From contig JAGAKF010000078.1 in the NCBI GenBank assembly GCA_017625835.1, positions 62,001 to 126,000 of the forward strand: 64,000 bases of DNA. The letters run 5' to 3'. Positions 3,508 through 23,169 of this stretch are shown here, one piece after another (the stretch's first letter is position 1; each line of letters opens with the position of its first letter). The stretch comes from Clostridia bacterium (GTDB taxonomy: Bacteria > Bacillota > Clostridia > Oscillospirales > Acutalibacteraceae). A program made the position numbers and the translations under genes. The notes below the pieces were generated by a model. It saw only the letters and a program-made list of their open reading frames with translations. It ran no database searches and was not told where the DNA came from.

Positions 3508-6120
3508 ATGTCGGATTTTGCTTATAAAATTTCAGTTATAATCCCCGTTTACAACTGTGAAAAACATCTTGAAAAATGTATGAACAGCCTTAACCGTCAG
3601 ACGATGAATTCTTCTGACTTTCAGGTTGTTTTTATAAACGACGGTTCCAAGGATAAAAGCGACGAAATCTGTATGCGACTCAAAGAAAGCTGCAGCAACG
3701 TTCTCTACTTCAAAAAAGAGAACGGCGGCGTTTCATCTGCCCGTAACAAGGGCCTTGAGCTTGCAGAGGGTAAGTACCTTCTTTTTCTTGATGCCGACGA
3801 TTCAATTTCTGACAATGCGCTTGAAGACATCTATAATTTCTTCGAAAAGCATTATGATGAAGTAGATCTTGTTACTTATACAATCGACTACCTCAGCGAG
3901 ACAGGAAAGGTCACAACTCACAAGCGTTACGACGTCGTTAATCATACGGGAATCTATGACATTAATACAGACCATAACATTATGCAGACAACGATGAACG
4001 TCTGCGTTAAAAATGTTGACAAAAACAACCGTATTCTTTTTGACGAAAGCCTTACTCTCGGCGAAGATCAGCTTTTCATTTTCTCATGGATTTCACGTAA
4101 GCAGAAATTCGGGTTTGTTAAGGAAGCTGTTTACACTTATTACCGCCATTCAGGCTCCGCAAGTTCAATTTACAACGATCCTTACTACTGCTTTGATCAG
4201 TACATCAGCTTTTTCAACAAGCTTCTCAATGTACTTAAAACTCCCAACGGCAGACCTCATCCGACGGCTCAGTCAATGGTCGTTTACAACCTTAACTGGA
4301 GAATCACTTCCGACCTGCTTGTTACCCACGCGGACAAAGAGCTTGAAGCAAAACAGCTCGGCATTATAAAGGAAATGCTCAAAAACATTGACGAGAACAT
4401 CATCGTCGGTTCAATCTACGTTGACCCGTACCACGTTGAATGTTTTATGCGCCTTAAAGAGCTTGATTACGATTACGCGTACAACAACAATACATTAAGC
4501 GTATTCAGCAAAGATCATCTCTGGTTTTCACAGCCGCACACAATTGTTTTTGACACTGTCCGCATAATCGGCGACACATTCAATCTTTCGGGCTTTGTAA
4601 AAACGGGTGTCATTCCTTACAGCGAAATCAAGCTTTTCTACGATGACGGTACTAACAATCTTCAGGAACTTGAAATGACCGACACGCTGTTCAGCTGCTA
4701 CAAAGCAAAGGCAATAACCAACAACTTCGGCGGTTTCGAGCTCAACGTCAAGCTCACTGACAACAATTACGTCGGATTCAAAATAAAGATCGGCAACGAT
4801 TACATTTCACCTGCCGTATTTTTCAGCTTCAAGTGTATAATCAACAACGTAAGAACTACTGTTGCCTGCGGAAAATATGTTGTAAACTTGGACAAAGCCT
4901 CTCGTGGCATTACCGTAAAAACAGCTTCTGAAGCAGAGCTTAAAGCCGTTGCAAATAAAGCTGATATAGCGGCTCTTCACGAAAACAGAAACGCATTTAT
5001 TTACCGCAAAACGGCTAAATTTATCCGAAACGGAAAAGAAATCTGGCTTTACTGTGACAGAGAAGGTATCTTTGACAACGCTTATCAGCAGTTCCTGCAC
5101 GACTTTGAAATCAAAGACGGTGTACAGAGATACTATATAATTGATAACCTCAAGGATAAGAGCAAATATTTCTCCTTCAAGCACAGAAAGTATCTTGTTG
5201 AATTCAAGAGCCTCAAGCACAGATTGCTCTTCCTTAACGCAAAGAAAGTTCTCACTTCCTTTAATTCAATCACAATCATAAGCCCGTTCGGCAACCTTCC
5301 TTTAAGATGGTATTACGATATAATGGATCTCGATATCATCTACCTTCAGCACGGTGTGCTTCACGCAAATCTTCCGTTTATGTATACAAAGGAAAAGTCG
5401 AACGTTGACAAGGTTGTTATATCTTCTGAATTCGAAAGAAGAAACTTCTGCGAAATTTACAGATTCAAGGAATCTGATCTTCTTTACAGCGGTATGCCGC
5501 GTTTTGACACAATCGACGTAAGCGTAAAAGCGAAGAAAAAGATCCTCTTCTCTCCCTCCTGGCGTAAGAACCTTATCGGTGAGTATGTTGACAACACACG
5601 TGAGCTTTTTGTTGACAAGTTCCTTGATTCTCCGTTCTATAAAGAAATCAGCAACTTCCTTAACTCCAAAGAGCTTGCCGATATTCTTGAAAAGTACGAC
5701 CTTACTCTTGACTTCAAGAACCATCCGATTTTCAGAGATTACGACGCTTACATCAAGGTTGACAACCCGAGAATCAACGTTACCCAGGACGGCATCAATA
5801 TGCAGGATTATCTTGCGATGATTACTGACTATTCCTCCGTTGTATTCGACTTCGTTTACCTCAGCAGACCAATAATCTACTTCGTGCCTGACTACGACCA
5901 GTTCCGTGCAGGCGTCACTCACGGTTACCACAAGCTCGACCTTCCTCTTGAAAAAGGCTTCGGTGACATTACTCTTAACTCTGCTGAGCTTCTTGAATCT
6001 GTCCGCAAGCTTGCTGAAAACGACTTCAAAGCAGCTCCTGTTTACCAGAAGAGAATGGACGATTTCTTCGGAGAAAGAGACACAAAACACCGCGACAGAC
6101 TTTACGAGCTCATTAAATAA
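3508..6120 (+). CDS. GT2 glycosyltransferase fused to CDP-glycerol glycerophosphotransferase domain
   Basis: A bifunctional cytoplasmic, membrane-associated enzyme of about 870 residues for a teichoic-acid-like or glycerol-phosphate-decorated surface polymer. The N-terminal GT-A domain has SVIIPVYNCEKHL (about 9-21), VFINDGSKD (about 41-49), the GGVSSARNKG loop and the metal-binding DADD (95-98). The C-terminal third is TagB/TagF-like: YLQHGVLHA near 611, FSPSWRKN near 680, a KNHP segment, and TDYSSVVFDF near 772, all typical of CDP-glycerol glycerophosphotransferases. About 250 middle residues match nothing I recognise. The start at 3508 is chosen because aaaagga lies 9 nt upstream and the promoter's start site excludes the ATG at 3475. 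A strong terminator follows. Confidence 0.85.
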   Translation: MSDFAYKISVIIPVYNCEKHLEKCMNSLNRQTMNSSDFQVVFINDGSKDKSDEICMRLKESCSNVLYFKKENGGVSSARNKGLELAEGKYLLFLDADDSISDNALEDIYNFFEKHYDEVDLVTYTIDYLSETGKVTTHKRYDVVNHTGIYDINTDHNIMQTTMNVCVKNVDKNNRILFDESLTLGEDQLFIFSWISRKQKFGFVKEAVYTYYRHSGSASSIYNDPYYCFDQYISFFNKLLNVLKTPNGRPHPTAQSMVVYNLNWRITSDLLVTHADKELEAKQLGIIKEMLKNIDENIIVGSIYVDPYHVECFMRLKELDYDYAYNNNTLSVFSKDHLWFSQPHTIVFDTVRIIGDTFNLSGFVKTGVIPYSEIKLFYDDGTNNLQELEMTDTLFSCYKAKAITNNFGGFELNVKLTDNNYVGFKIKIGNDYISPAVFFSFKCIINNVRTTVACGKYVVNLDKASRGITVKTASEAELKAVANKADIAALHENRNAFIYRKTAKFIRNGKEIWLYCDREGIFDNAYQQFLHDFEIKDGVQRYYIIDNLKDKSKYFSFKHRKYLVEFKSLKHRLLFLNAKKVLTSFNSITIISPFGNLPLRWYYDIMDLDIIYLQHGVLHANLPFMYTKEKSNVDKVVISSEFERRNFCEIYRFKESDLLYSGMPRFDTIDVSVKAKKKILFSPSWRKNLIGEYVDNTRELFVDKFLDSPFYKEISNFLNSKELADILEKYDLTLDFKNHPIFRDYDAYIKVDNPRINVTQDGINMQDYLAMITDYSSVVFDFVYLSRPIIYFVPDYDQFRAGVTHGYHKLDLPLEKGFGDITLNSAELLESVRKLAENDFKAAPVYQKRMDDFFGERDTKHRDRLYELIK

Positions 6121-19373: not shown

Positions 19374-20321
19374 TTAATAACCGTATTTTTCTTTAAATTC
19401 TTCTCTTGTATTTCTTGTAAGAAGCTTTTCTCCGTCAAAAATCAGGATGCAATATGCGTGGCCGCATTTCTTACCTTTTTCAAACCATTCTGCAAAAGCT
19501 CTCTGCATACTTGTATTTCTCGGGAGCTCGTGAACTCTCTTCTGTGCATTTTCAACACCGAAAATTCGCCATCCGTCACCGAAGTCGTAAGTTCTTGTGA
19601 TATCAAGCGGCTCGAAGTCAAGAAGGAAATCCCTTACCTTTGACTTTTCGGGGAGAATATTGAGATTATCGGGATACAGAAGCCATGAACCGCAGCAGAC
19701 AACCATCGGGCCGTCAAATCTGTCCTTAAAGAATTCGTAAGCTTTCTTGTAAGAATCAAGTCTTGTTTCGTAGTCAAGGCTTCCGAGGTGTGACGGAATA
19801 TGGAGACCAAGAACAAACTGGCTGTCCTTAAGCTCGATTCCGTGCTCGTCGTAATAATCCTCGCAGAAATCTGAAAGTTCATACTGGAATCTGCCGATAC
19901 CGAATCTTTCAAGAGTATAGAACTGCTTGAACCAACCTTCAACAAACACGCCGTAAACATCGTAGTTTTCCTTACACTCAAGCATTTTTACCTTGAGGTC
20001 TATGATTGTGTTCCAGTAAATATCTTCGCTGATGTTTGCTTTCTTATACGCAGCGAGCAAAGGCTTTGTGCAGTTAAGCAGAAGAACGAGCTTTACCGTA
20101 TGCTCGTTTTCGCCGATCATTTCAGCAAGAGACTTTACCTTATCTTTAAAAGCATCGAAATTCTTTTTCTTAAGCCAGTATGCTCTGTACATTGATTCAT
20201 AGAGTTTGTTTGCTTTCTCGTCTGCAAGAATCTTTTCTTCTGTTCTGATGATAACTTCCTTTGCTTCTGCAGGATATTCCTGCTTGTCCATTACCAAAAG
20301 TGCGTGATTGTAATTTTTCAT
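19374..20321 (-). CDS. Acyltransferase-domain protein (GNAT_C/NAT_N-like)
   Basis: A 315-residue protein resembling a two-domain group of GNAT-related acyltransferases found in Clostridia: a helical N-terminal half (1-130) and a C-terminal acyltransferase-like domain with LGLHIPSHLGSLDYE (about 190-204) and DFGDGWRIFGVENAQKR (about 250-266). The acyl donor and acceptor are unknown. The start at 20321 is set by ggagg 9 nt upstream; the site overlaps the stop codon of the preceding GNAT gene, with a 4-bp gap, so the genes are coupled. An ABC exporter heterodimer follows after 34 bp, suggesting that an acylated product is exported; that link is inference. Confidence 0.65.
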   Translation of the reverse strand: MKNYNHALLVMDKQEYPAEAKEVIIRTEEKILADEKANKLYESMYRAYWLKKKNFDAFKDKVKSLAEMIGENEHTVKLVLLLNCTKPLLAAYKKANISEDIYWNTIIDLKVKMLECKENYDVYGVFVEGWFKQFYTLERFGIGRFQYELSDFCEDYYDEHGIELKDSQFVLGLHIPSHLGSLDYETRLDSYKKAYEFFKDRFDGPMVVCCGSWLLYPDNLNILPEKSKVRDFLLDFEPLDITRTYDFGDGWRIFGVENAQKRVHELPRNTSMQRAFAEWFEKGKKCGHAYCILIFDGEKLLTRNTREEFKEKYGY

Positions 20322-20325
20322 TGTT

Positions 20326-20919
20326 TTAAACCTCCGGGTCATAAAGCATATAGTAGTTGTAAATTTTTTCTCTTTTATAAAACTCTTCCTTGATTATTTT
20401 AAAACCGAGTTTTTCATAAAAAGGAACGTTGTCGGGATTCTGGGTTTCAAGACCGATTTTATATCCCTGAGGAACAAATTCCTCAATGCCTTTTCTGATC
20501 ATTTCTTTTGCGATTCCTTTTCCCTGATGCTTCGGGTCAACGAAAACAGGGGAAATAATCTTCGTTTTCTTGTCAAAAACTTTTGAATCAAGGTAGCGGT
20601 ACGCCATAAGAGTTCTGAAGGTTGAATCTATGTAATAGCAGAGGAACACCCAGTTGGGGCATTTAAGGAAATCTACGACGGTGTATTCGTTATGGGCATC
20701 TCGCCAGACGCAAAGCGCTCTGTTTTCGTCATCGACGTAAAAGACATCACAGTTGTTGGAAGACGTCAGCCTTTCAAGAAGAAAATGGTAAACAAACTTT
20801 TTTCTTCTTTCAACGTCCTTTGTTGCGTAGCAATGCACGGGGTCGTCGACGAAGCTTTCGGCGGCCATCCGCGCGTAAAATTTCAATGTTTCTCTGTCAA
20901 GCTTTGTTACTCTTTTCAT
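20326..20919 (-). CDS. GNAT family N-acetyltransferase
   Basis: A 197-residue GNAT protein. Motif A is VDPKHQGKGIAKEM (about 148-161) with the Q-x-x-G-x-G/A pyrophosphate loop, and motif B is NVPFYEKLGFKII (about 180-192). The N-terminal 100 residues contain an aspartate/histidine-rich segment (FVDDPVHCY) common in this subgroup. It is the first gene of an apparent four-gene operon running leftward through an acyltransferase and two ABC exporter subunits. The start follows acgaggtttt. The acceptor molecule is unknown. Confidence 0.85.
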   Translation of the reverse strand: MKRVTKLDRETLKFYARMAAESFVDDPVHCYATKDVERRKKFVYHFLLERLTSSNNCDVFYVDDENRALCVWRDAHNEYTVVDFLKCPNWVFLCYYIDSTFRTLMAYRYLDSKVFDKKTKIISPVFVDPKHQGKGIAKEMIRKGIEEFVPQGYKIGLETQNPDNVPFYEKLGFKIIKEEFYKREKIYNYYMLYDPEV

Positions 20920-20950
20920 AGAAAACCTCGTAAAAAATCATATTCGATGT

Positions 20951-20956
20951 ATTATA
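20951..20956 (-). promoter_or_regulatory. extended -10 promoter for acyltransferase/ABC operon
   Basis: TGTTATAAT on the minus strand gives a perfect -10 with an upstream TG; no good -35 lies 17 bp away. The ATG at 20919 is about 30 bp downstream. Confidence 0.45.
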
Positions 20957-21019
20957 ACACAAAAAACAATTATTTACTATACAATTTATAAAAATAATCA
21001 CGACTTTTGTGTTGAAGGC

Positions 21020-21047
21020 AAAAATAAAAACGCCCTTTCGGACGCAC
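21020..21047 (-). terminator. second terminator downstream of ncRNA
   Basis: A short GC stem closed by a GAAA tetraloop (cgtcc-gaaa-gggcg, one wobble) is followed by a long U-rich tract on the minus strand. It would stop read-through from the ncRNA into the GNAT operon. Confidence 0.65.
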
Positions 21048-21076
21048 TTCGGAATATAAAAAGTGTTATAAAATTG

Positions 21077-21465
21077 AAATAACCCTTGACCGAATGTTTC
21101 TTTACACATTTGAGCCGGTCAAGGGTTATTTCTGTTCACTCTTAATATCTAACATCTTTTTATATACCTCTCTTTCTTAATTTCGAAAGAACTTTAATAA
21201 TTTTGAATCCTGATTTAAATGTTTTTACGGTTATTGTTTAAATTCAAGTTACCATTGGCATTTAAAACTTTTTCCGAATTATTAAAGCTTTTGCTCAACC
21301 ATAATTTTGAAACTGTAAATTTTCAATTAAAACTCTTTTATACCACTTTCATTTGAGTTATTGTCTGAACACTCGGGGTTTTAACTGAAAGTTTAAACTG
21401 ATTCAATTTTTGAATTGAGCTTTAGGTTGTTACCTGTTCATTGGTATCACCCGTTCCTTTCTGTG
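21077..21465 (-). ncRNA. Putative large structured non-coding RNA, family unknown
   Basis: About 390 nt with no usable ORF, bounded by a consensus promoter (TTGAAA-17-TATATT at 21471-21499) and a very strong terminal hairpin (perfect 16-bp stem 21077-21092 / 21116-21131, with a further 5-bp stem in its loop). Internal complementarity is extensive and nested. An 11-bp helix pairs 21192-21202 with 21277-21287 and encloses an 8-bp helix of 21214-21221 with 21259-21266. There are hairpins at 21307-21326 and 21401-21415. A long-range pairing joins 21293-21300 to 21413-21420. Size and organisation recall Clostridial RNAs such as raiA or ROOL, but I cannot confirm membership. It is not tmRNA, RNase P or 6S as far as I can tell. 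Confidence 0.6.
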
Positions 21466-21470
21466 TCTAT

Positions 21471-21499
21471 AATATAACACAGATTCAACCGCTTTTCAA
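21471..21499 (-). promoter_or_regulatory. promoter for the large ncRNA
   Basis: TTGAAA (21494-21499), exactly 17 bp, TATATT (21471-21476) on the minus strand. The transcript should begin near 21465 with gacacagaaagg. Confidence 0.65.
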
Positions 21500-21574
21500 T
21501 TCGCAATGTTCAATAAACTTAAAAGCTTCAAATTATGCAAAACACAGAAATGTTGTTCCGGGCCGTCAAAACCG

Positions 21575-21604
21575 TTGACACTCAAGGGTTTAATGTGTTA
21601 TAAT
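21575..21604 (+). promoter_or_regulatory. consensus promoter for short RNA
   Basis: Perfect TTGACA and perfect TATAAT separated by 18 bp. It is the best sigma-A promoter in the window, yet no ORF follows before a terminator about 75 bp on. Confidence 0.7.
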
Positions 21605-21610
21605 AAATAT

Positions 21611-21682
21611 GTTGGGCGGCTTGAAAGCCGTTCGTTTTCTTTCAAAAACAATGAACACCCGTCAAAGCGACGGGTGTTTTTC
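21611..21682 (+). ncRNA. Putative short (~72 nt) RNA, family unknown
   Basis: It starts about 7 nt after a perfect TTGACA/TATAAT promoter and ends in an intrinsic terminator (9-bp perfect stem 21655-21663 / 21669-21677, then a T run). A first hairpin near 21616-21632 has the stem gcggct / agccgt with a TGAA loop. The 25 nt between the hairpins are A/U-rich, single-stranded and open for pairing. No ORF with a ribosome site is seen. The RNA is divergent from the large ncRNA and lies about 165 bp upstream of an FAD-oxidoreductase gene. Confidence 0.55.
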
Positions 21683-21787
21683 TATGTCTATATTATAGCA
21701 CATATTTTTTTGAAAAACAAGACTGTTATTTGTTACGGTAATAAGCTATACTTTAAACAAATTCGGGCATTTTTCTGTTTGGAACTA

Positions 21788-21816
21788 TTGAATATGGCAA
21801 ATGTTAGTGATATAAT
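21788..21816 (+). promoter_or_regulatory. promoter for FAD oxidoreductase/ABC operon
   Basis: TTGAAT, 17-bp spacer, TATAAT; the ATG at 21847 is 31 bp beyond with a caggagg site. Confidence 0.68.
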
Positions 21817-21846
21817 TTTTCCATATGTTTTTCAGGAGGTTTTGCT

Positions 21847-23169
21847 ATGGCTAAAAAGATTATTGTTGCCGGTCTCGGTCACGGCGGTATCGCCGCAGCC
21901 GCTCTTCTTGCAGAGGCAGGTTACGACGTTACGGTTTACGAAATGAAGGCTGAGGGTACGCTCGGCTACGACTGGACTGACATTTTCGCTCCCGACGCAC
22001 TCAGAATCGCTAAGATTCCGATGCCTGACGAAGACAAATTCGAATATAAGGAAGATATGACATTCGTTTCTTCTAACGGTACCTCCAAGCTTTATCAGCA
22101 CGTTCCCGAGGCTGAGCTTGAAATCAAAATGGAAAGAAAAGATATTTACGACCTTTTCATCAAAAATGCTGTGGATAAGGGCGTTAAAATCGTTTATGAA
22201 TGTGAAGTTCAGAAGCCGATTATGCTCGGAAACCGCGTTGCTGGTATCCGCACTTCAAAGGGAGACTTTTTTGCCGACCTCATCATTGACTCCTGCGGTA
22301 TGAATTCCCCGATCCGTCGCAATCTTCCGTCTTCACTTATGATCCAGAAAGAAATCACACGCCGCCAGAAGGTTACTATTTTCCGTGCTTTCTACAACAA
22401 GGCAAGCGATGTTGAAGTTGAGGACAAGTTTAAGGTGCTTCTCCGTCCCGAAGGCGGCGAAAGCATTGCCTGGGTTGCTTCCGAAGAGGAACACACTGAT
22501 CTTCTTATCGGCAGATTTGAGGACTTTGATATTCAAGAGGTTGAGCGTTTTGCTCAGTGGCTTCGTCCGACCAACCCGAGGCTCGGCACAGAAATCGTCC
22601 GTGGCGGTCAGTTTGTTGAAATTCCCGTCCGTCATCCCCTCTCCGTTATGGTTGCTGACGGATATGCAGCAATCGGTGACAGCGCATTTATGACGGTACC
22701 GCTTATCGGTTCGGGAATCGCAAATTCACTTAAAGCAGCAAGAATTCTTGCTGAAACAGTTATCAATGACCCGACACAGGGCTTCGGCGTTGAAGCTCTC
22801 TGGAGATATCAGGTTCTTTTCTTCAAGCATCTCGGAAGAGGGCTTGCTCCGCTTGAGTGCGTAAAGAACCTTATGTTCAGATTCACTCCCGAAGACCTTG
22901 ACTATTGCTTCGACTCGGGTCTTCTTACCGACTACAACGTAACTATGACTGCGAACTTCGGCAGCTTCTATGACCTTATTGATTTCTTCGACATAAACGA
23001 TCTTCTCAACAAAGCAAAGCAGGCTTGTGCGGACATCGACTTCCTGAAAAAGGTAATGAACGCAGGCAACAAGATTTCTCTCGTTACGGCAACCTGCCTC
23101 GCAATTCCGAGAAGATGGGACAGAAAGCTCGTTGAACTCTGGGCAAACGGTTACGACAAGATTTTTTAA
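21847..23169 (+). CDS. FAD-dependent oxidoreductase (geranylgeranyl reductase/halogenase-like)
   Basis: A 440-residue flavoprotein. The N-terminus has the dinucleotide-binding GLGHGG (9-14) followed by a hydrophobic helix and the acidic end of the second strand (VTVYEMK). A second FAD motif, GYAAIGDSAFMTVPLIGSGI (about 273-292), is the form found in geranylgeranyl reductases, FixC and related monooxygenases. The substrate is not evident: lipid or prenyl double bonds are possible. It is the first gene of an operon with two ABC half-exporters (32-bp gap), so it may modify an exported compound or its lipid carrier. The start is supported by caggagg 7 nt upstream. Confidence 0.78.
   Translation: MAKKIIVAGLGHGGIAAAALLAEAGYDVTVYEMKAEGTLGYDWTDIFAPDALRIAKIPMPDEDKFEYKEDMTFVSSNGTSKLYQHVPEAELEIKMERKDIYDLFIKNAVDKGVKIVYECEVQKPIMLGNRVAGIRTSKGDFFADLIIDSCGMNSPIRRNLPSSLMIQKEITRRQKVTIFRAFYNKASDVEVEDKFKVLLRPEGGESIAWVASEEEHTDLLIGRFEDFDIQEVERFAQWLRPTNPRLGTEIVRGGQFVEIPVRHPLSVMVADGYAAIGDSAFMTVPLIGSGIANSLKAARILAETVINDPTQGFGVEALWRYQVLFFKHLGRGLAPLECVKNLMFRFTPEDLDYCFDSGLLTDYNVTMTANFGSFYDLIDFFDINDLLNKAKQACADIDFLKKVMNAGNKISLVTATCLAIPRRWDRKLVELWANGYDKIF

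Follow-up and report, generated by a model that had tools for sequence, protein, structure and literature searches.

The predicted RNA on the minus strand of the window (the whole stretch of 64,000 nucleotides analysed here) belongs to a family of stand-alone genes that, as judged by sequence comparison, typically begin with a three-codon frame and end with a nine-codon frame that extends into the closing hairpin. The best reading, to which we give a probability of roughly 0.4, is that the RNA serves as a translation gauge, its folding or stability reporting translation. The single parts of such a design are known; what appears to be new is the combination of head start–stop frames with a stop codon locked in the closing stem of a stand-alone RNA, and it is rated new because no family tested shares it.

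A predicted transcription unit with translation signals at both ends

With its coordinates re-read, the unit spans positions 21069–21464 of the minus strand and comprises a promoter, nested helices and a terminal hairpin. The minus-strand promoter of the original prediction, TTGAAA-17-TATATT, is present, with the −35 hexamer (21499–21494) seen also in genus alignment A1 and the −10 hexamer (21476–21471) placed behind a 17-base spacer, TATATTATAGACACAG being near-invariant in A1 and the start being predicted at ~21464. The minus strand folds with z = −5.3 (0 of 100 shuffles equally low) and the plus strand is likewise well folded (z = −8.0), so that folding alone cannot assign the strand; the assignment was made from the promoter, the ribosome sites, the codons and the T-rich end, from which we infer that the RNA runs from ~21464 to ~21069.

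The region had been described as containing no ORF, and no ORF of ≥40 aa, as a protein-coding mRNA of the usual size would have, lies within the RNA on the minus strand; the only one touching the region (20897–21109, 70 aa) starts within the terminal hairpin and extends beyond it. Although a gene-size ORF is thus absent, two short frames with strong ribosome sites are present and are conserved across families, and a purely non-coding view of the RNA is not supported, since its best-conserved parts are the translation signals at both ends.

At the 5′ end, which reads AGAAAGGAACAGGTGATACC ATG AAC AGG TAA in A1, an extended ribosome-binding site, AGAAAGGAACGGGTGAT (21446–21462, minus strand), is complementary to the 16S 3′ tail (duplex −17.1 kcal/mol) and accompanies the three-codon frame AUG AAC AGG UAA (21430–21441, minus strand), which is also readable from an in-frame GTG at 21450. 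The tail used, GGATCACCTCCTTTCTA, was typed and then seen in a genome of the same family (G024, one of ten genomes searched); no 16S tail site was found in the window's own assembly.

The architecture was counted on 139 distinct loci out of 146 records, the promoter and mini-frame counts having been repeated after removal of duplicates. A hand-made pattern, which misplaces some promoters (the shortest "middle", 8 nt in L084, is such a case), located a promoter in 111 of the 139 loci and recognised none in 28. Of the 111 loci with a promoter, 81 have an AUG preceded by a strong ribosome site no more than 75 nt from the predicted start, and exactly two sense codons separate this AUG from the stop in 66 of the 81, the remaining first frames having one sense codon (8), three (3), none (1) or more (3). 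AUG UAC AGG UAA (18) and AUG AAC AGG UAA (10) are the commonest. Short start–stop frames number 75, versus 16.8 in shuffles (counted before duplicate removal), and stand two or three in tandem in L091, L202, L128 and L252. With an AUG, very few codons (two sense codons in 66 of 81, one in 8 of 81), a stop and a strong ribosome site, these heads have the sequence features of a minigene, which are not universal because 28 of the 139 loci have no recognised promoter and in 30 of the other 111 no first AUG passes the ribosome-site cutoff. As calculated on the records before duplicate removal, the ribosome-site duplex has a median of −13.0 kcal/mol for the first frame (66 records) and of −13.6 kcal/mol for the second (146 records, including 7 duplicates); both sites are strong, yet ordinary genes cover the same range, −13 kcal/mol being reached by 21% of 43 genes of the window when counted generously over candidate starts.

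Near the 3′ end, a second ribosome-binding site, AAGAAAGAGAGG (21167–21178, minus strand), near-invariant in alignment A2, precedes the nine-codon frame MLDIKSEQK with stop TAA (21126–21155, minus strand), the whole reading GAAAGAGAGGTATATAAAAAG ATG TTA GAT ATC AAG AGT GAA CAG AAA TAA and entering the hairpin. The terminal hairpin, already part of the original prediction, occupies 21076–21132 (minus strand) with perfect 17-bp arms, the 5′ arm containing the frame end and the stop codon, and is followed by AATTTTA, a T-rich stretch to 21069. Downstream of it lies a second terminator, GCGTCC GAAA GGGCG TTTTT (21026–21045, minus strand); one within ~120 nt downstream was found in 60 of 139 records (some of them duplicates, the count preceding their removal), versus 10.0 expected.

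Upstream of the RNA promoter, two conserved boxes were recognised by eye from the upstream regions: box B, TTTATTGAACATTGCG, beside the −35 hexamer (21502–21517), and box A, TTTCTGTGTTTTGCATAATT (21531–21550). In the window (21502–21550) the boxes are 13 bases apart, their starts 33 apart, between divergent promoters, and they look like the binding sites of a dedicated regulator. The divergent promoter, TTGACA-18-TATAAT (21575–21604, plus strand), is predicted to yield a tiny transcript with the start TGTTGGGCGG (21610–21682, plus strand), containing a hairpin at 21617–21630 and a terminator at 21655–21682. The corresponding pattern, TTGAC-N16-19-TA[TC]..T, occurs upstream in 87 of 136 distinct loci versus 7.4 expected from shuffles, 74 of the 87 lying 20–170 nt upstream of a located RNA promoter; its few matches elsewhere are within the RNA or far upstream. 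At other loci the divergent promoter typically leads, by eye, straight into a hairpin starting near TGTTGGG, and where the unit is in tandem (L101 and L236), each copy has kept a divergent promoter of its own. Reading the GCCCAAC/GTTGGGC box as an integron attC site was rejected, the box not being kept in L100 and others (by eye). On the minus strand of window positions 21655–21706, a promoter-like TGCTATAATATAGACATAG leads straight into a hairpin, AACACCCGTC..GACGGGTGTT; both the site and the hairpin are present in G006, and the hairpin only in G002.

Conservation of the nine-codon frame and its closing hairpin

Among the 139 distinct loci, the nine-codon frame is of the LD type in 129, of the EP type (M-x-E-P) in 8 and of another type in 2. 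It ends with UGA in 78, UAA in 57 and UAG in 2, and this second stop codon is wholly inside the stem in 133 of 137 distinct loci. The 3′ ends of 61 sequences were aligned (79 were usable, with the window and L049 among them, and 62 were left once near-copies had been taken out; L080 was omitted), and 9 of their 18 consensus pairs carry compensatory changes. The middle base of the stop codon pairs as G–C in 35 and as A–U in 23 of the 61, stop and stem both being kept.

The frame could also be explained by an mRNA encoding a functional nonapeptide (MLDxKxxQK or M-x-EP type), in which the overlap of stop and terminator would reflect compactness, while the three-codon frame and the middle would set the stability or level of the mRNA. 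A strong second ribosome site and a frame length that is constant in 127 of the 129 LD-type loci, although set partly by the search pattern, would be expected of such an mRNA, as would the synonymous variation of the LD type at Leu (TTA 112, TTG 6, CTA 6, CTG 3, CTC 2), Asp (GAT 127, GAC 2) and Lys (AAG 114, AAA 15). These counts are conditional, since both the search pattern and the definition of the class require Leu-Asp and Lys codons and leave 10 of the 139 loci outside the class; because the residues are preset, the counts show codon variation and not the frequency of residue change. Similarly, all 81 matches in the 80 listed loci encode M-L-D-[ITN]-K-x-x-Q-K plus stop, a core whose conservation is partly forced by the construction of the pattern from which they derive. 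A functional peptide is harder to reconcile with the divergence among copies in one genome (MLDIKSAQK, MLDIKSEQI, MIEPNNEER and MTEPKHSGNNP, all in G323) and with last codons that vary jointly with their stem partners (by eye); it gives the repeated three-codon frames no role, and no neighbour family recurs as a possible receptor. We take the nonapeptide seriously as a rival and nevertheless consider it rather unlikely.

A middle that varies between families

Between the two frames lies a structured, fast-evolving middle (21179–21429, minus strand), assessed by covariation in 11 genus sequences, 10 of which have it; both ends of alignment A1 are nearly invariant and the middle is variable. The proposed nested helices were recovered, an 11-bp helix (21277–21287/21192–21202) around an 8-bp helix (21259–21266/21214–21221), with two compensatory pairs in each. 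Over the 11 genus sequences, ten helices pair in 93.1% of cells versus 32–51% when slid by 1–3 columns, a score that is favoured because the structure was drawn from the consensus of the tested sequences, with two helices added by hand. The covariation check that the original prediction had suggested gave a divided answer in the same 11 sequences: pairs changed on both sides exceed those in shuffles (11 versus 4.3), but further pair types do not (31 versus 29.5). Helix 8, the hairpin directly 5′ of the second ribosome site, pairs in only 66.7% of cells. In each of the 103 middles longer than 120 nt, the RNA strand is purine-rich from the predicted start up to the second ribosome site.

Other families possess a different conserved middle with CACGRCGGTG, a pairing of CGCCUUUUGC with GCAAAAGG directly ahead of the second ribosome site, and a UUCUC/GAGAA hairpin. 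In 23 sequences of this kind, 86.6% of cells pair versus 38–59% when slid, and 13 cells are changed on both sides versus 6.2 in shuffles; the pairs so changed (6 versus 3.8, with 40 of 500 shuffles as high) and the pair types (19 versus 17.5) both give weak support. Of a set of 86 sources, 19 contain matches (20 places) at E < 1e-7 to model R2, which describes this middle, as do 12 of a set of 68 (training sequences included). It was found in 12 of 341 class genomes, in all 12 directly upstream of a match to covariance model R1. The best R2 match in the window has E 0.03 and is confined to the second ribosome site, the window genus being without R2; comparison of the sequences indicates that the middle is not conserved between families. 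A kissing contact between a GGCG loop and CGCC in the R2-type middle was rejected, since the variants do not co-change (by eye).

Covarying helices in the genus, together with the placement of R2 directly upstream of R1 in other families, are what one would expect if the RNA were a structured non-coding RNA whose middle does the work, the frames only parking ribosomes that protect both ends from nucleases. The middle is, however, missing or short in places. In the congener G010 ~240 nt of it are missing and both frames are kept, a 186-nt stretch covering this short form folding with z = −6.5, and in L113 and L121 only 73 and 62 nt separate the predicted start from the second ribosome site, again with intact frames. 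The window itself also lacks R2 apart from the ribosome-site part. We regard ribosome protection of a working middle as a serious but rather unlikely account of the family.

Distribution, neighbours and relation to known RNAs

The original prediction had called for a search for relatives, and conserved homologues were found both in congeners and beyond the genus. A DNA search of 98 genomes returned full-length relatives of 70–84% identity in nine congeners and the short form in G010, while in G035, of the same family, and in G081, from another family of the order, the ends alone matched; 43 of the 98 genomes matched at E ≤ 0.1, and matches beyond these 12 relatives and the window's own genome are short and were taken as chance or a shared promoter. 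A pattern made of the nine-codon frame and the hairpin base gave at least 115 matches in one-genome-per-species contigs, with less than one expected by chance (our own estimate from the number of specified bases). The 80 loci kept are titled Clostridia, Oscillospiraceae, Eubacteriales, Faecousia, Lawsonibacter, Ruminococcus, Firmicutes or uncultured bacteria. The same single pattern gave 0 matches in viral contigs, on which a phage origin was rejected.

At E ≤ 0.001, model R1 matched 48 of 295 order genomes (30 of 149 genera; no genome had more than four copies), 20 of 341 class genomes and, in a phylum-wide draw, 1 of 299, the window's own genome only; among the 98 relatives it matched 19 at E ≤ 0.01, 14 of them at E < 1e-10. 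The tallies for the order, the class and the 98 relatives include weak matches on the reverse strand of the same hairpin and matches above ~1e-7 (e.g., G069, G083, G115 and G218 of the 48); neither kind was used as members in the argument, and those on the reverse strand were not counted as copies. The counts imply that most genomes of the order are without a recognisable member. The covariance-model matches were found with the model and not with the pattern, although for part of them the collection of loci again required a frame start of Leu-Asp, x-Asp or x-Glu-Pro.

Several loci offered observations of their own. Two unit copies lie ~1.3 kb apart on one contig in L123 (2380–2830 and 3846–4110), the first peptide starting MTLDIK, and on the reverse strand of L054 a second micro-ORF (MKLDFKSEQK, GTG start) with a hairpin stands just upstream of the matched copy, forming a tandem unit. 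In L100, two Gut-1 RNAs (RF01706) on opposite strands are found ~1 kb behind the unit (5720–5901). The stretch at 1500–2100 of L021 (G048) has a promoter 96% identical over 26 bases, followed by ~860 nt without a 90-aa ORF. An 18-codon frame there, MDSEQFHSAVSRLLGCRC, is preceded by a strong ribosome site, and a 6S RNA gene lies ~650 nt away; the stretch is possibly another RNA of no named family.

The RNA had been left unplaced among tmRNA, RNase P, 6S and SRP RNA, and it matches none of them in Rfam 15. A cmscan of the whole window against Rfam gave only tRNA elsewhere and no match over the RNA. At curated cutoffs, no Rfam 15 family overlapped the RNA in the window or the RNAs in sets of 14 (12 members), 18 and 16 further loci; matches at E ≤ 10 in the window region were all far below the cutoffs, as were those at E ≤ 0.1 in five loci, except for a tRNA beside the unit in L246. 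The resemblance to raiA or ROOL that had been suggested did not hold up, neither appearing even at E up to 10, and ARAGORN found no tRNA or tmRNA, and thus no tRNA-like acceptor domain, in window positions 20900–21850. Among the open papers searched, a range that stops short of a 224-candidate RNA survey, neither the nonapeptide string nor a matching RNA family was found. A term search in the main text of two genome-wide RNA surveys gave no name with Faecalibacterium, Ruminococc- or Oscillo-. In the accessible part of a 104-candidate survey, the motifs from gut samples and Clostridiales include Gut-1 and Clostridiales-1, with Rfam numbers, and TwoAYGGAY, which has none in the table there and was compared with the unit only insofar as Rfam 15 contains it.

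Among the neighbours of the 80 kept loci, even the most frequent family occurs at no more than 9, and no target or partner gene emerged downstream. The nearest downstream ORF (called mechanically, ≥70 aa) runs in the same direction as the unit in only 30 of 70 loci. Within the genus, the unit stands between a GNAT gene and an FAD-dependent oxidoreductase gene (Pfam), facing the former in the window, G002 and G006 and the latter in G013, G003, G010 and, across an intervening ORF, G014; in G004 it faces the oxidoreductase with a different left neighbour, and in G005, G009 and G012 it lies beside a homologue of window 19374–20342. One inversion explains these orientations on the oxidoreductase tree (8 rows, with support of only 77/74 for the branch uniting each group). 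The window unit is flanked by a 21-nt inverted repeat of 86% complementarity (20947–20967 and 21588–21608), a possible route for the inversion between congeners.

A short frame with conserved start, stop and ribosome site and a terminator hairpin is the known layout of a leader, as in the fthC uORF candidate (PMC11109978, accessible part), but a leader-peptide attenuator of a downstream gene was rejected as very improbable, because no consistent co-directional gene follows the unit, its neighbours vary and it is inverted between the same two genes within one genus. No likelier is a small mobile or invertible DNA element with the conserved ends as its termini, for which the opposite orientations in one gap, the tandem copies in L101 and L236, the patchy distribution and the inverted repeat could be cited, given that both repeat arms cover promoter −10 regions and may be alike for that reason, that a single inversion suffices, that the conserved parts are promoter, codons and hairpin, and that no transposase or integrase is seen, by eye, among the 12 commonest neighbour clusters.

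Discussion

The results support one half of the idea of a large stand-alone non-coding RNA: own promoter, own terminators, varying neighbours, inverted orientation and the lack of an Rfam 15 family all speak for a stand-alone unit, whereas the conserved translation signals do not support a purely non-coding RNA. In the translation-gauge reading, the long 5′ ribosome-binding site would hold an initiating ribosome, which after two sense codons would terminate or drop off, and the 5′ end would thus be occupied whenever free ribosomes and initiator tRNA are plentiful. A ribosome reading MLDIKSEQK would arrive at the stop codon only by opening the terminator stem at its base. With ribosomes running, the hairpin would be opened repeatedly, and either the polymerase would pass to the second terminator or the 3′ end would be exposed to nucleases; with translation slowed, the hairpin would stay shut and the short RNA would accumulate. 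The folded middle would carry the output, through protein binding or pairing with another RNA, and would be exchangeable or dispensable.

The enrichment of the second terminator is as expected if the first can be opened, and precedents for single steps exist. In E. coli, ribosomes almost fully repress a terminator that lies only a few bases past the end of a gene (PMC4824070, accessible part), and the accessible part of PMC8708949 describes ribosomes held on a six-codon minigene as protecting the mRNA and minigenes with strong ribosome sites as holding ribosomes, protecting RNA or causing peptidyl-tRNA drop-off. In bacteria of the B. subtilis type, the polymerase outruns the ribosomes (PMC13323073, accessible part), so that translation need not control a terminator that overlaps a stop codon, and any effect of the nine-codon frame would shift to RNA stability. 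Speaking against the gauge, the three-codon frame is not universal, the second terminator was found in under half of the records, the ribosome sites are no stronger than those of the best ordinary genes, and the peptide shows some constraint of its own (LDxK or EP) that a pure stop-in-hairpin gauge would not need.

A bolder form of the proposal, which we advance with considerable doubt, is that these RNAs make up a new class, neither mRNA nor conventional non-coding RNA, for which ribosomes are the ligand and which would act as a cell-wide gauge in gut Clostridia. The start–stop frames would count initiating ribosomes, the nine-codon frame would drive an elongating ribosome into the hairpin, and the middle would broadcast the result. 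If true, a stand-alone class of bacterial RNA sensing translation itself, and not a metabolite or tRNA, would be widespread in poorly studied gut and rumen Clostridia, and the cellular measurement of ribosome activity would become testable in an RNA that is shorter than 190 nt in one species. Even if only the family holds, its three- and nine-codon genes fall below the usual sizes of gene calling and provide a defined set for the study of start–stop translation.

The unit is worth comparing with known systems. raiA, ROOL, GOLLD and OLE are structured RNAs that stand alone, and several come from Firmicutes or rumen samples; the unit differs from them in having no Rfam match, conserved translation signals and a middle that varies between families. 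tmRNA is likewise a structured RNA, with a frame of about ten codons whose stop lies inside a helix, whereas the unit has no tRNA-like part (0 genes in ARAGORN) and its frame begins with AUG and a ribosome site. SgrS/SgrT and RNAIII are dual-function structured stand-alone RNAs with a short frame; the unit has two, one near-fixed at three codons and the other locked into the terminator. Minigenes, of which lambda bar is one, resemble the unit in that a strong ribosome site precedes a start codon followed by only a few sense codons and a stop, but they lie in leaders or inside operons of longer genes, whereas the short frames of the unit come first in a stand-alone RNA that has no longer frame and in some members form a row of two or three. 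Known examples, in the accessible part of PMC8708949, are a two-codon minigene in axe-txe and the six-codon mini-ORF of the LEE4 leader, and ribosome occupancy can there protect RNA or titrate tRNA. Finally, leader attenuators and uORF candidates (fthC and odc1) resemble the unit in their short conserved frame, and fthC also in a stop codon placed in a hairpin (PMC11109978 and PMC8632094, accessible parts); the unit departs from these leaders in being followed by no consistent downstream gene, in its additional 5′ start–stop frame and in possessing its own pair of promoters.
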